Source: Crocinitomicaceae bacterium
GTDB lineage: Bacteria > Bacteroidota > Bacteroidia > Flavobacteriales_D > Crocinitomicaceae
Length of the DNA: 64,000 nucleotides
Assembly (NCBI GenBank): GCA_029254025.1
Contig: JAQWYK010000002.1
Span: 124,001-188,000 of the forward strand
Direction of reading: 5' to 3'
How positions within the stretch are numbered: the first letter of the stretch is position 1; the number at the start of each line of letters is the position of its first letter. Below are positions 4,417 through 10,606 of this stretch, piece after piece. The notes below the pieces were generated by a model. It ran no database searches, had not been told where the DNA came from, and saw only the letters and a list, made by a program, of their open reading frames with translations. Made by a program: the position numbers and the translations under genes.

Positions 4417-4511
4417 ATGACTAAAAATGAGAATGAAAAGAAACAAACATTACATATAAAGGGTGTGAAGAATTTAACTCTACAACCCCCCTTATTTAGA
4501 AAGATTCTAAA

Positions 4512-4560
4512 AATACCATATATGTGGTATTGTTCTTACTTCAATCGCTCCCTACATTTG
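4512..4560 (+). promoter_or_regulatory. Promoter with abutting 20-bp palindrome (operator candidate) for the imelysin/carboxylase operon
   Basis: A Bacteroidota promoter is visible: TTG at 4530-4532, a 20-bp spacer, then TACATTTG at 4553-4560, 17 bp before the ATG at 4578. Overlapping the TTG is a near-perfect 20-bp palindrome at 4512-4531 (arms AATACCATAT and ATGTGGTATT, one mismatched pair). Its position on the -33 element is what one expects of a repressor or metalloregulator operator. It does not resemble the enteric Fur box, so the regulator is unknown. Confidence 0.65.
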
Positions 4561-4577
4561 TCAAAAATTCATATTCT

Positions 4578-5717
4578 ATGAAAACTTTGTGTACCTTACT
4601 TATTGCATCTGCTATATTCACAATTACAAGCTGCAAAAAAGAAGGTTGTACAGACCCATTAGCAACAAACTTCAACGAAGAAGCTAAAAAAGATGATGGA
4701 TCTTGTTTGTATGATGAAGGATATGTAATCCCAACTACTTTTAGTTTCACAAATGGAAACGGAAACAATACCGTAGACTATTCCGGTCAAACAGAACGCC
4801 TCGATCAGTTGAGCGAAATGGTTACCTTAATGAAAAGTGGAACAACTCAAGCGATTTCAGCGCAAGCTTTAAAGGATATGTTTGCGAATACAGGAGGTAA
4901 TGGAAGTGGAAACTTTTCCTTCAGTTCAACAAAACAATTAAAAGATAAATGTTTTTCATTGGATCAAACGTTGTTTGAAACATGGATGGATAGCATCGAA
5001 AAATCGAGCTTAAGTTTCGATCAGGCTGCCTCCGATGGTCAAGCGGGAGTGCTCACAACAGGGACTTCAACGTACTTATTTGACGATAAAGGAATTGAAC
5101 ATCTCCAATTTATTGAAAAAGGGCTAATGGGAGCAGTTTTTATGTACCAAGCCTTGAACGTATATTTTGGTCTAGGAAAAATGGATGTAGATAATACAAC
5201 CGCTGTTGACCCATCGACAGGTAAATATTATACCGCTATGGAACATCATTTTGATGAAGCATTTGGTTATTTCGGAGTAGATATTGATTTCCCAACCACC
5301 ACTCCCAATCGTTTTTGGGGGAAATATTGCGATGCGCAAAATGGAATTCTGAATTCGAATGCAGACATGATGAATAACTTTTTAAAAGGGCGCGCTGCTA
5401 TTACGAATGATGTACTTGCTGATAGAGATGCTGCCATCCTAAACATCCGCAAGGAATGGGAAGAAATTTCAGCTTACCAAGCGATCAAATACCTTAACGA
5501 TGGTCTTGCCTATTTTGGTAACGACAATGCGAAATTCCTTCACGTACTTGCTGAGGCCTATGCTTTTGCTTGGAATTTAAGGTATGCTCCTGTTGAAACA
5601 CGCAGAATGTCCCCAACAGAACACGCCGATTTAATGGCCTTGTTTCCAGAGAGCTTCTGGACATTTACCATTGCTGATATCAATGCAATTAAGGCAGCGA
5701 TTGAAGCAAAATATTAA
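4578..5717 (+). CDS. DUF4856-type lipoprotein, first gene of the carboxylase/TonB operon
   Basis: Predicted lipoprotein of 379 residues. The start at 4578 gives a clean signal peptide ending in the lipobox TITSC; an ATG 18 codons upstream lies inside the promoter and is rejected. Just after the lipidated Cys comes a Cys-containing, Asp-rich segment of the CTDPxATNFN...DDGSC type, a motif repeated in many Bacteroidota surface proteins. The rest, about residues 50-379, resembles DUF4856, a helical family often encoded beside imelysins. No enzymatic motif is evident. It is followed after 17 bp by the imelysin-like gene, so co-transcription is likely. A role in metal or haem handling at the cell surface is inference from neighbours. 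Confidence 0.8.
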   Translation: MKTLCTLLIASAIFTITSCKKEGCTDPLATNFNEEAKKDDGSCLYDEGYVIPTTFSFTNGNGNNTVDYSGQTERLDQLSEMVTLMKSGTTQAISAQALKDMFANTGGNGSGNFSFSSTKQLKDKCFSLDQTLFETWMDSIEKSSLSFDQAASDGQAGVLTTGTSTYLFDDKGIEHLQFIEKGLMGAVFMYQALNVYFGLGKMDVDNTTAVDPSTGKYYTAMEHHFDEAFGYFGVDIDFPTTTPNRFWGKYCDAQNGILNSNADMMNNFLKGRAAITNDVLADRDAAILNIRKEWEEISAYQAIKYLNDGLAYFGNDNAKFLHVLAEAYAFAWNLRYAPVETRRMSPTEHADLMALFPESFWTFTIADINAIKAAIEAKY

Positions 5718-5734
5718 TTCAAAAACTAGTAAAC

Positions 5735-6796
5735 ATGACACGCTTAGTCCCGTTACTCCTTATTTTAGCCATTACATTGGGCTGTAATAAAGACACTGAT
5801 GATCCGAGGCCGGACTTTAATAAAGCCGCATTGTTGACGAATATATCTGGAGAGATTATCCTCCCTTCAATTGGCAAGTTTTCAGCTGATCTTGATAATT
5901 TAAGTGCAGCTTTTAATCAATTCTCACTGGATGAAACCCAAGTCAACTTTGAAGGAGTTCAAGAAGCTATTAAAACAGCTTATTTGACGTGGCAGACTGT
6001 GAAGATTTTTGACTTTGGTCCGATTCGTACAAATGGTATCAAAAGCGCAATCGGAACATATCCGTCAGACACAGCTGTCATTGCCTCATATATTGCTACT
6101 GGTTCCTACAATCTATCCTCTTTGGGTAATGTCGATGCCATTGGGTTGTCTGCGCTTGACTATCTGTTTTTTAAACAAAATGCACTGAATGAGCTACAAA
6201 CTAGCGCGAATTACCTGACCTACGCCGGAGACGTGGTGGCTAAAATGGTAGCTGAATTCGCGGTAGTGACTAACCAGTGGACAACCTATAAAGCAACATT
6301 TGATGCTTCAACGGGAACTTCCTCCACCTCAGCGTTTTCCGAATTTGTAAATGAATTTAACCGCGACTTTGAATTAGCCAAAAATGCAAAAATCGGAGTC
6401 CCATTTGGGAAGCAAAGTCTAGGTATACAACTTCCAGAATACATTGAAGCTCGCTATAGTGGTATTTCCCTTGATTTATTAGAGGAAAGTATCCGCGCAC
6501 TTCAAAAAGTTTATAATGGTGTTGGTTTTACGACTGGAGCCGATGGACCAGGGTTTGATGATTACCTAATTCATCTCGAAAAATCAAACCTAGATTCAAC
6601 AATTGACATGGGCTTTAACGGAATTATCAATAAAACAAACTCTTTTACCAATACATTAGAACAAGAAATGGCGGTGAGCGTTCCGGAACTGGATGTGCTG
6701 TATAGTTTACTTCAAGGCCATGTAGTGCATATTAAAACAGACATGACCTCTTCGTTCGGAGTGCTTATTACCTATCAAGATAATGACGGTGACTAA
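5735..6796 (+). CDS. Imelysin-family lipoprotein
   Basis: Lipoprotein of 353 residues with a signal peptide ending ITLGC. The body fits the imelysin (IrpA/EfeO-like, PF09375) helical fold: an early helix ending in TAYLTWQTVKIFDFGP, followed by INxxxG-like TNGIKSAIGTYPSD, and LGNVDAIGLSALDYLFF in place of the usual first-half motif. The classical GxHxxE motif of active-site imelysins is not visible: the equivalent stretch reads GLSALDYLFF. Binding rather than peptidase activity is therefore more likely (inference). Imelysins are usually iron-regulated. The gene overlaps the next one by 14 bp, pointing to translational coupling. Confidence 0.85.
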   Translation: MTRLVPLLLILAITLGCNKDTDDPRPDFNKAALLTNISGEIILPSIGKFSADLDNLSAAFNQFSLDETQVNFEGVQEAIKTAYLTWQTVKIFDFGPIRTNGIKSAIGTYPSDTAVIASYIATGSYNLSSLGNVDAIGLSALDYLFFKQNALNELQTSANYLTYAGDVVAKMVAEFAVVTNQWTTYKATFDASTGTSSTSAFSEFVNEFNRDFELAKNAKIGVPFGKQSLGIQLPEYIEARYSGISLDLLEESIRALQKVYNGVGFTTGADGPGFDDYLIHLEKSNLDSTIDMGFNGIINKTNSFTNTLEQEMAVSVPELDVLYSLLQGHVVHIKTDMTSSFGVLITYQDNDGD

Positions 6797-8177
6797 CACT
6801 TTTTCGAATAGCGTCAATAACTTTCTTTCTCAGAAGGTCAGCATCGCCCCATTGATTATGTTCAGAATAATCTTTGGGGCATTGCTTCTTTTTGGTACCC
6901 TACGCTTCGTGAGCAAAGGATGGGTAGAACAATTGTATATCCTTCCAAAATATCATTTTGGCTACTTGGGCTTTGAATGGGTACAAAAGCTTCCGGGAAA
7001 CTGGATGTACCTTCCTTTTATCGTGATGATTGTTACTGCCTTGATGGTTATTGTTGGATACTTTTACCGAATAGCCATTACCTCGTTCTTTCTGTGTTTT
7101 ACCTATGTGGAGCTCATTGATAAGTCGTACTACCTCAATCATTATTATTTCGTAAGCTTGATGTGTTTTATTCTCATTTGGCTGCCCGCACACCGCCATT
7201 TTTCGTTGGATGTTAAACGGAAGAACGTAACCGAGCAACACAATGTGCCCAACTGGACCATACGGATTATCCAGTTTCAACTTGGTGTAGTATATTTCTT
7301 CGCAGGCATTGCAAAACTGAATTCAGATTGGCTCATGGAGGGACAGCCCCTTGGGATTTGGCTTCAAGCACACCACAACATTCCACTTGTTGGACCTTTG
7401 CTTCAAGAAAAATGGATGGCTATTGCGTTTAGCTGGGCAGGATGCCTCTATGATTTATTCATTGTTTTCTTTCTCCTTATGGCACGCTCGCGAAAATTCG
7501 CTTATTTATTTGTGGTATTTTTCCACTTAGTAACCTGGTACCTCTTTCCTATTGGGGTATTTCCATGGGTTATGATTTTTTCAACACTCATCTTTTTCTC
7601 TACCAACTTTCATGAAATCGCACTGGACCGATTACAACGATTGTTTAGAAAAGATAATTCGTTGAATGCGGCCACCTCCAAAAGTGCTCCTTTTCCATCT
7701 GCAAGATGGGTGAATGTGACTATCGCTCTCTATATCATCTTCCAACTCGCAGTACCCTTCCGTTACCTGCTTTATCCCGGTAACCTTTATTGGAATGAGG
7801 AAGGATTTCGCTTCTCTTGGCGCGTAATGCTCATGCACAAAGAAGGTCATGCCGTTTTTTACCTCAAGGACAAAAAAACAGGTCGTGAATCTGAGATTAA
7901 CAATGCGAAGTTTCTGACACGTACACAAGAAGATCAAATGGCGACGCAGCCAGATATGATTTTACAGTATGTACAATTTCTCAAAGCATATCATCACGGA
8001 AAAGTGTTGCATTATGGTAATGAAAAATTCACTATCAAAGACCCAGAAATTCACGCTGAAATTTATGTCAGTTTAAACAATAGATTATCACAGAAATTCG
8101 TGGATAAGCGCCATGACCTTACTACCTTTGCGTACGATTTAAAACACCGAAAATGGCTAGAGCCATTTAACGAATGA
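6783..8177 (+). CDS. Vitamin K-dependent gamma-carboxylase homologue (HTTM domain protein)
   Basis: Multi-pass membrane protein of 464 residues that matches, in order, the carboxylase part of human GGCX, not only the short HTTM helices. From memory of GGCX, the key residues are kept: His120 in LNHYYFVSL corresponds to His160, and Lys178 in FAGIAKLNSDW corresponds to the catalytic base Lys218. Further shared blocks are PAHRHFSLD, GNLYWNEEGFRFSWRVM and EIYVSLNNRLSQKFVDKRHDL. The C-terminal propeptide-binding/lumenal region of animal enzymes is absent. GGCX converts protein Glu to Gla using reduced vitamin K; the Leptospira homologue is reported to do the epoxidation only. It overlaps both neighbours (14 bp and 4 bp ATGA), so it is an integral operon member. 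Activity and substrate here are unknown. Confidence 0.88.
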   Translation: MTVTNTFSNSVNNFLSQKVSIAPLIMFRIIFGALLLFGTLRFVSKGWVEQLYILPKYHFGYLGFEWVQKLPGNWMYLPFIVMIVTALMVIVGYFYRIAITSFFLCFTYVELIDKSYYLNHYYFVSLMCFILIWLPAHRHFSLDVKRKNVTEQHNVPNWTIRIIQFQLGVVYFFAGIAKLNSDWLMEGQPLGIWLQAHHNIPLVGPLLQEKWMAIAFSWAGCLYDLFIVFFLLMARSRKFAYLFVVFFHLVTWYLFPIGVFPWVMIFSTLIFFSTNFHEIALDRLQRLFRKDNSLNAATSKSAPFPSARWVNVTIALYIIFQLAVPFRYLLYPGNLYWNEEGFRFSWRVMLMHKEGHAVFYLKDKKTGRESEINNAKFLTRTQEDQMATQPDMILQYVQFLKAYHHGKVLHYGNEKFTIKDPEIHAEIYVSLNNRLSQKFVDKRHDLTTFAYDLKHRKWLEPFNE

Positions 8178-10606
8178 AATACATCCTATTCATATCATTT
8201 ATATTGCTTTCAGCTATAGGAGCACGCGCGCAAAGCCTGCGTGGAGTATTGGTAAATCCCGAGAACGCAGCTATTCCGGGTGCAACCATAGAAAATACAC
8301 GCACCTTATTTAAAACGCGGACAGACGTTAAAGGGCAATTCAGTATTTCAGCAAAAGAAAATGATACCCTTCTAATTACTTCGTTCTCCTATGATACACT
8401 GCGGTTTGTCGTGACCATTACCTCGCTCCAAGCCAACGATAAATATGTACTCAATTATTTCTCTAAAGAATTTGAGGAGATCAACATCACACAAAAACGT
8501 ATGGCCTCCTTTGATGTAGGCTTTCTCCCTCCAGTAAAAGGTGTTCGTTTAAATTCGGGTACCAATGCAATTATTGAATTGGAAAATTTAAGTGGGGCTA
8601 AATCTTCGGGGAATCCGCGCGAGCTCTTTGCAAAAATTCCAGGAATTAATATTTGGGAAAACGATGGTGCAGGAATACAAATGGGTATTGGTGGTCGCGG
8701 ATTAAGCCCCAACCGCACTGCGAACTTTAATACGCGCCAGAATGGTTACGACATCAGTGCAGACGCACTCGGTTATCCAGAAAGTTATTATACTCCACCA
8801 ATCGAAGCCCTAAAATCCATTGAGATCATTCGGGGGTCGGCCTCCCTTCAATTTGGAACACAGTTCGGTGGATTACTTAACTTCGTGATTAAAGACCCTG
8901 TTAATCATTCTCCGCTAGAAGTTACTACCCGAACAACGACAGGAGGATATGGCTATTTTGGTACATTTAATCGCCTGTCTGGAAACGCTAACCGACTTTC
9001 CTATCAGGTCTATCACCAATACAAACGAGGAAATGGTTACCGTGAGAACAGTGAGTTTTATCAACATCAATTATTTGGACAACTCGGATATGCCATAACT
9101 GAAAAATGGCAGGTAGGTGTTGAAATCACCAAAATGTCTTATTTAAGTCAACAAGCTGGTGGTCTTACCGACTTAATGTTTCAAGAAAATCCCAGACAAA
9201 GCATTCGTGATAGAAACTGGTTTCACGTAGATTGGAACATGCTCGCTGTGACTTCCACCACTGAAGTGGGCAGAAATGGTACCGTCGATGTTCGTGCTTT
9301 TGGAATATTGTCTGAGCGTCAAACACTTGGTTTTTTAGGGAAAGTAACTCAAGGTGACCCCGGAGGTAGAAGAGAGATGATTGACTCCCAGTTTAAAAAT
9401 AAGGGTGTAGAAGCAAGGTACCTTCAAAAATACTGTATTACGGAAATGGAAAATAAGTGGCCCCTGAAAGGAGCATTTTTAATTGGTGCACGTTTTTACC
9501 AAGGAAAAACAGTCACCAACCAAGGAACAGCAACCGATGGAATGGGTGCTGACTTTTCCTTCAAAAATACTTCGGACTTGGAGAATTCGTCGTTCACTTA
9601 CCCCTCGTTAAACCATGCACTCTTTGCGGAAAATATGCTCTTTCTCGGGAAAAAAGTGCGGCTCAACTTTGGAATGCGCCTTGAAAATATTTCAAGTAGC
9701 GCCAGAGGATACTACAAGCTGTACTCAATCCATCCGTTTAATTTTGACACCTTAAACGTGGCAACGATGTGGGATTCAAATACAGTTGTGCGACATGTGC
9801 CTTTATTTGGTGCCGGGGTATCCTACAAAATTGCGAAACATCATCAATTATACACCAATTTCACTCAGAATTACCGCGCAATCAATTTCACGGATATCCG
9901 GGTCAATAATCCGAATATTGTCATCGACACGGCCATATGCGATGAGTATGGATTTACCGCTGAATTGGGTTGGAGAGGACTCCTCAAGGAGTATATGATT
10001 TATGATGTAGCAGCATTTTACATTTTCTACGGCGACAAAATTGGACTAGCACCATTGCCTGGAACAGTCGTGCGAGAACGCACCAATATTGGAGATGCCC
10101 AAAACTATGGTTTGGAGACATTTTTAGAAATCAATTGGTCCAAAGCTCTTAACGATTCAGCACAGCATCAAGTCTCTAGTTTTATCAACGCTTCTTATAT
10201 CAACGCGAATTACATTAACTCCAAGGAACCCAATTTCCTCGATAAAAGAGTGGAATACGTGAGCTCATTGATTCTGAAAACTGGATTAAAATACCATTAT
10301 CGTCAGCTCATCCTTCAAGCTCAATTCAGCTATAATTCGGAACAGTTTTCGGATGCATCTAACTCTGTTGAACCTTCTGGAGATGCTATTCTTGGGGTCG
10401 TTCCTGCGTATTACGTCATCGACTTTTCAGGGCGCTACCAGTTTAAGAAAAACTTCTCTGTTGAGTTGGGCATCACGAATTTAACGAACAATCAATACTT
10501 CACCCGTAGAGCAACTGGATACCCTGGGCCTGGCATATTACCCTCCGACGGTGTGAGTTTTTACACCACGATTCAATATCAATTCAAATTAAAAAATCGT
10601 CATTGA
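8174..10606 (+). CDS. TonB-dependent outer-membrane receptor, FecA-like
   Basis: Outer-membrane active transporter of 810 residues. A signal peptide (ending ARAQ) is followed by a carboxypeptidase-regulatory-like beta-sandwich (about 20-100), a plug domain (about 120-240, with LFAKIPGINIWENDGAG, GIGGRGLSPNR and EIIRGSASLQFGTQFGG) and a 22-strand barrel ending in an aromatic residue pattern typical of BAM substrates (TTIQYQF). The plug resembles FecA-type siderophore receptors. It begins at an ATGA overlap with the carboxylase homologue. Its stop codon overlaps the convergent amidohydrolase by 7 bp, leaving no room for a terminator between them. The ligand is not known; an iron chelate or haem is likely from its neighbours. 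Confidence 0.92.
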   Translation: MKYILFISFILLSAIGARAQSLRGVLVNPENAAIPGATIENTRTLFKTRTDVKGQFSISAKENDTLLITSFSYDTLRFVVTITSLQANDKYVLNYFSKEFEEINITQKRMASFDVGFLPPVKGVRLNSGTNAIIELENLSGAKSSGNPRELFAKIPGINIWENDGAGIQMGIGGRGLSPNRTANFNTRQNGYDISADALGYPESYYTPPIEALKSIEIIRGSASLQFGTQFGGLLNFVIKDPVNHSPLEVTTRTTTGGYGYFGTFNRLSGNANRLSYQVYHQYKRGNGYRENSEFYQHQLFGQLGYAITEKWQVGVEITKMSYLSQQAGGLTDLMFQENPRQSIRDRNWFHVDWNMLAVTSTTEVGRNGTVDVRAFGILSERQTLGFLGKVTQGDPGGRREMIDSQFKNKGVEARYLQKYCITEMENKWPLKGAFLIGARFYQGKTVTNQGTATDGMGADFSFKNTSDLENSSFTYPSLNHALFAENMLFLGKKVRLNFGMRLENISSSARGYYKLYSIHPFNFDTLNVATMWDSNTVVRHVPLFGAGVSYKIAKHHQLYTNFTQNYRAINFTDIRVNNPNIVIDTAICDEYGFTAELGWRGLLKEYMIYDVAAFYIFYGDKIGLAPLPGTVVRERTNIGDAQNYGLETFLEINWSKALNDSAQHQVSSFINASYINANYINSKEPNFLDKRVEYVSSLILKTGLKYHYRQLILQAQFSYNSEQFSDASNSVEPSGDAILGVVPAYYVIDFSGRYQFKKNFSVELGITNLTNNQYFTRRATGYPGPGILPSDGVSFYTTIQYQFKLKNRH

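Follow-up and report, generated by a model that had tools for sequence, protein, structure and literature searches.

What could a homologue of the vitamin K-dependent gamma-carboxylase (VKGC) do in a bacterium? The question is raised by a 64,000-nucleotide stretch of Crocinitomicaceae DNA (the window), in which such a homologue is encoded between an imelysin lipoprotein and a TonB-dependent receptor. Human GGCX depends on vitamin K and activates the proteins of blood clotting, and vitamin K-dependent carboxylation is known mainly in animals, for calcium-binding proteins. Our literature search found no paper on bacterial gamma-carboxylated Glu (Gla).

The locus and its GGCX homologue

The features of the locus are as follows.

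4494-4512, no strand assigned: putative Fur box ATTTAGAAAGATTCTAAAA, 16/19 matches to the Riemerella consensus (PMC5609570), 66 nt before the DUF4856 ATG
4578-5717, + strand: DUF4856 lipoprotein (Pfam PF16148, 2.4e-47)
5735-6796, + strand: imelysin lipoprotein, IPPA-type (Pfam PF09375, 1.3e-26)
6783-8177, + strand: VKGC/GGCX homologue, 464 aa, HTTM transmembrane domain and lumenal domain (PF05090, 2.5e-81; PF22777, 6.2e-48)
6785-6793, + strand: C-terminal Asp-Gly-Asp (DGD) of the imelysin, also in IPPA 3pf0
7137-7142, + strand: VKGC codons N119-H120, human N159-H160 of the Glu-binding pocket (GGCX alignment)
7314-7316, + strand: VKGC K178 codon, human K218 (GGCX alignment)
7704-8171, + strand: VKGC lumenal domain PF22777, residues 308-463 (Pfam)
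8174-10606, + strand: TonB-dependent receptor with N-terminal carboxypeptidase-regulatory-like domain (Pfam TonB plug and barrel)

The ORF calls and Pfam agree with the first-pass annotation on the positions and strand of the four genes and on the overlap of the VKGC with both neighbours, which amounts to 14 nt with the imelysin and 4 nt with the receptor. The receptor, described there as FecA-like, is indeed TonB-dependent; the named part of the description is a weak match only (NF041676 reaches 81 of the 1100 bits required, TIGR01783 102 of 223), and the protein falls below the cut-off of every named NCBIfam family matched. NCBIfam has no model for the DUF4856 lipoprotein, the imelysin or the VKGC.

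Human GGCX is the sole PDB match of the VKGC in a phmmer search (E = 4.2e-44, residues 15-462). In a fold search at E <= 0.001, the AlphaFold model of the protein (pLDDT 90) hit 16 GGCX chains only, with TMq up to 0.82. In an explicitly numbered alignment, position-checked on known human residues, H120, K178 and N119 correspond to H160, K218 and N159, so that the equivalence of Lys178 and His120 to the GGCX active-site residues, proposed at first pass, holds. The equivalents of N159, H160, K218, W223, G259, F286 and F299 are invariant in 79/79 Bacteroidota homologues, and those of A214 and F294 additionally in the 58/58 members that belong to the operon defined below. In the human enzyme, K218 serves as the base in hydroquinone deprotonation, the substrate Glu is kept in place by N159, H160 and Y395, and the naphthoquinone pocket is lined by F286, F294, F299, H160, V210, M401 and W223 (PMC12589487); by alignment, most of the pocket residues are kept in the homologues. 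With the HTTM domain followed by the lumenal domain, the GGCX fold, the catalytic Lys218 and the Asn159/His160 pair of the Glu pocket, the 464-residue protein is a two-domain vitamin K-dependent carboxylase homologue.

Other positions have changed. Y395, R436 and N158 are further contacts to the Glu or the substrate. In the human enzyme, K217 has a coupling role in substrate binding, and R436 keeps the backbone of the substrate in place (PMC12589487). The R436 position is Gln in 49/58 operon members, the window copy included, and the N290 position is Thr in 57/58; Y395 is represented by Tyr in 44 and by Phe in 14, among them the window copy, and M401, N158 and K217 are replaced by Val, Leu and Ala, respectively. 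The alignment contains no VKGC sequence past human residue ~505; the arch and PBD-2 residues are consequently missing, and a propeptide-binding groove made of PBD-1 plus PBD-2 is not present. In animals this groove serves substrate recognition and is not part of the catalytic core. The loss of K217 and of the propeptide lobe would suit a VKGC that catalyses nothing and serves the lipoproteins as a membrane chaperone or scaffold, but such a role is very improbable, given that 79/79 homologues across a diverse clade retain the catalytic Lys, His and Asn.

A conserved operon and its imelysin

In an even sample of 395 genomes from across Bacteroidota, 82 contain PF22777. Eighty loci were taken, their neighbours were classified by profiles grown from the window proteins, and the HTTM ORF was recovered at 78 of the 80, which together with the window gives the 79 homologues. 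A locus was counted as an operon locus if the VKGC has an imelysin beside it together with a receptor or DUF4856; 58/79 qualify. The receptor lies downstream in 58/58 of these, and DUF4856 is recognised directly upstream of the imelysin in 52/58, in the order DUF4856, imelysin, VKGC, TonB receptor. In a second set, made up of 80 loci from named genomes plus four plasmids, all four genes stand in order at 67/84, and several of the remaining loci end at contig edges. The hosts include Fluviicola, Brumimicrobium, Flavobacterium, Aquimarina, Pontibacter, Mucilaginibacter, Spirosoma, Balneola, Fodinibius and a Rhodothermaceae MAG. The closest relatives are found in Fluviicola/Crocinitomicaceae at 65% identity. 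The operon VKGCs form one clade with 100/100 support, whose 62 rows consist of the 58 operon loci, three broken or truncated contexts and one Persicobacter. The co-occurrence of the four genes, which the first-pass annotation had left to a survey, is thus seen across the phylum, both in gene order and in genome counts: VKGC (82 genomes) and DUF4856 (58) occur together in 53 of the 395 genomes versus 12.0 expected (p = 1e-38), and DUF4856 occurs without VKGC in five.

The pairing with the imelysin is near-obligate. An operon-type imelysin is found in 71 genomes, every one of which also has VKGC (71/71 versus 14.7 expected, p = 4e-67); the bit-score threshold for the imelysin was fixed once the hits had been seen, which partly shapes this figure. 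The imelysin is directly upstream of VKGC in 60/62 rows of the operon clade; the two exceptions are L085, with an operon-type imelysin on another contig, and L076, with VKGC alone. Independent support for the pairing comes from plasmid pPP1 of Persicobacter psychrovividus (L114:4201-9314): there an imelysin, a DHOR peroxidase, an IPPA-type imelysin and a VKGC follow one another, the last two overlapping, and no recognised DUF4856 or receptor stands beside the imelysin-VKGC pair. Locus L101 likewise has both DHOR and VKGC in one operon, and the two loci possibly link the classical imelysin-peroxidase operon with the VKGC operon. Four plasmid-borne homologues were found, and only that of P. psychrovividus has an imelysin beside VKGC.

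We also note two settings of a different kind. The lone operon-clade VKGC of L076 (L076:8415-9785), without DUF4856, imelysin or receptor, retains intact NHYYF and AKLNSDW motifs and occupies the same chromosomal site as the VKGC of L059, flanked as there by the 525-aa and the 444-aa gene. A second VKGC lineage (L089, L070, L081 and others) lies between ribF and serS with no imelysin neighbour and occurs in one family of the same class. It keeps the catalytic residues K218/H160, and at N158, N290 and M401, where the operon type differs from human GGCX, it mostly has the human residues.

The window imelysin has the M75 fold, the GxxxxE variant motif without His and the C-terminal DGD of IPPA proteins, its profile aligning to IPPA 3pf0 through the DGD. 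As a recognition tag for VKGC the DGD was rejected: it is also present in 3pf0 and in peroxidase-linked IPPA imelysins and is therefore not VKGC-specific. The Glu of the GxHxxE motif was likewise rejected as a Gla site, being Asp in 41/57 VKGC-linked members, the window copy included. E213 and E238 are the sole invariant Glu residues of VKGC-linked imelysins, and on our reading of the alignment E238 appears to match by position the functional-site Glu137 of the Bacteroides ovatus imelysin. A comparison with unlinked imelysins found no Glu specific to the linked ones, both E213 and E238 occurring outside as well, and the operon-locus alignments contain no conserved Gla-like Glu cluster in imelysin, DUF4856 or receptor.

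The DUF4856 model is confident and mostly helical, and a fold search gave no PDB relative. The idea that DUF4856 is a hidden imelysin was dropped, as neither profile nor fold search matched it to a solved structure. Its N-terminal CTDPLATNFNEEAKKDDGSC stretch in the window (4578-4760) is absent from other aligned family members. In genomes without VKGC, DUF4856 homologues L203 and L204 adjoin TonB-dependent receptors, which suggests a receptor-linked role of its own.

The first-pass annotation had treated the two lipoproteins and the receptor as equal candidate substrates; the evidence points to the imelysin instead. A Gla substrate other than the imelysin, whether DUF4856, the receptor or the product of a gene at another place in the genome, is improbable. 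This alternative can draw on H322/E326 of DUF4856, invariant in 52/52 VKGC-linked proteins and not in the five VKGC-less homologues (a lead only, the contrast resting on few sequences), on the five invariant Glu residues of the receptor, and on the L076 and ribF-serS VKGCs without a neighbouring imelysin; against it, DUF4856 exists without VKGC in five genomes, and the imelysin-VKGC pair occurs without DUF4856 and receptor. The balance favours the imelysin as the VKGC partner.

Fur boxes, quinone and the chemistry

In Riemerella anatipestifer, the receptor RAYM_09779, the vitamin K-dependent gamma-carboxylase 09784, the imelysin lipoprotein 09789 and the hypothetical protein 09794 are Fur/iron-regulated, and the same study gives a 19-bp Fur consensus (PMC5609570). 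Scanning with this consensus at >= 15/19 matches places a candidate box upstream of 83% of 118 operons; for 795 control ORFs taken at these loci the share is 5%. The whole source genome, which encodes Fur-family proteins, contains 26 strand-hits at <= 3 mismatches versus 3 for the reversed pattern. Other sites adjoin a TonB receptor with NifU, Fe-S assembly proteins, Fe/Mn superoxide dismutase, succinate dehydrogenase and NqrA, neighbours that a Fur regulon would be expected to have; some matches adjoin unrelated genes, e.g. recA. With a box upstream and a Fur protein in the genome, predicted Fur control of the operon, which is new here, and its link to iron are well supported. The connection to iron made at first pass, before the Fur box and the published Fur regulon were brought in, is therefore stronger than was then apparent. 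Our literature search found gamma-carboxylase, imelysin and iron combined only in the Riemerella study (PMC5609570), and the main text of a Flavobacterium psychrophilum transcriptome does not name the operon genes.

The source genome encodes MenD of the menaquinone route and has no VKOR. In the 395-genome sample VKOR occurs independently of VKGC, which led us to reject it as a recycling partner; any epoxide would accordingly be recycled otherwise or not at all.

The strongest rival to gamma-carboxylation, itself rather unlikely, holds that VKGC is a quinol oxygenase or epoxidase that makes no Gla and directs its Lys-initiated hydroquinone chemistry at another target, e.g. iron or its ligand, in the place of DHOR. 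Related imelysins without VKGC adjoin DHOR di-haem peroxidases, a partnership noted before (PMC3143127), and VKGC occupies the slot of the peroxidase in related operons; the source genome has one imelysin and no DHOR (no PF06537 match), and so lacks the Efe-like imelysin-peroxidase pair. The missing propeptide lobe, the lost R436 and the lack of a conserved Gla-like Glu cluster and of VKOR would all be compatible with quinol chemistry that makes no Gla. Against it, N159 and H160 of the Glu pocket are as invariant as K218, and VKGC is no simple replacement for the peroxidase, since the operons of two lineages contain DHOR as well as VKGC.

Proposed function and comparison with known systems

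In the gamma-carboxylation reading, which we prefer, this would be a Fur-repressed iron-acquisition operon. The TonB-dependent receptor would import an iron complex, and the DUF4856 and IPPA-type imelysin lipoproteins would deal with iron in the envelope. Drawing on menaquinol, O2 and CO2, the VKGC in the inner membrane would convert Glu to Gla in a protein of the operon during the periplasmic passage of that protein, with the imelysin as the likeliest substrate and DUF4856 as a less likely one; the Gla would be a stronger metal ligand on the carboxylated lipoprotein, with E213 and E238 of the imelysin as the best candidate sites. We put the probability of this reading, with the imelysin as the most likely substrate, at about 0.4. 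The narrower statement, that across Bacteroidota a menaquinol carboxylase induced via Fur under iron starvation makes Gla on the imelysin for iron binding or transfer, is somewhat more doubtful. Homology, an intact active site, operon conservation, Fur control and the near-obligate imelysin pairing are well supported; enzyme activity, Gla as its product and the imelysin as its substrate are what we infer. Of the first-pass proposal that a co-encoded protein receives Gla, the retained N159/H160 pocket and K218 base stand in favour, and Gln at R436, Phe at Y395, the end of the sequence near ~505 and the lack of a Gla-domain-like Glu cluster in any partner weigh against, which leaves the Gla step plausible. 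Gamma-carboxylation of the imelysin is further opposed by the absence of a VKGC-specific Glu in imelysins, the loss of K217, the absence of VKOR, the VKGC standing alone at the operon site in L076, and the second lineage without imelysin.

If the proposal is true, vitamin K carboxylation has a non-animal use, in metal acquisition. The operon gives bacterial VKGC homologues a phylum-wide iron-regulated context, a defined inducing condition, culturable hosts and one main candidate substrate, so that bacterial Gla becomes directly testable. It also ties imelysin proteins of unexplained role to a quinone-dependent membrane enzyme.

The window VKGC shares with human GGCX the HTTM and lumenal domains, the fold, K218, H160, N159, W223, F286, F294 and F299. 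It differs in ending near residue 505 without arch and PBD-2, in the replacements K217 to Ala, R436 to Gln, M401 to Val and N290 to Thr, and in having no VKOR partner. Leptospira has a glutamyl carboxylase homologue, likened here by its description, which is also a bacterial VKGC homologue and is described as presumably horizontally acquired (PMC4555120); in contrast, the operon VKGCs form one clade across a phylum. The Riemerella genes RAYM_09779-09794 correspond in receptor, VKGC, imelysin lipoprotein, hypothetical protein and Fur/iron regulation, though as a table entry only (PMC5609570); from its position, RAYM_09794 is probably DUF4856. The imelysin/IPPA (PA4372-like)-DHOR operons and EfeUOB share the IPPA-type imelysin with DGD, Fur/iron regulation and envelope lipoproteins (PMC3143127), whereas in the present operon VKGC, DUF4856 and a TonB receptor are found instead of the DHOR peroxidase.
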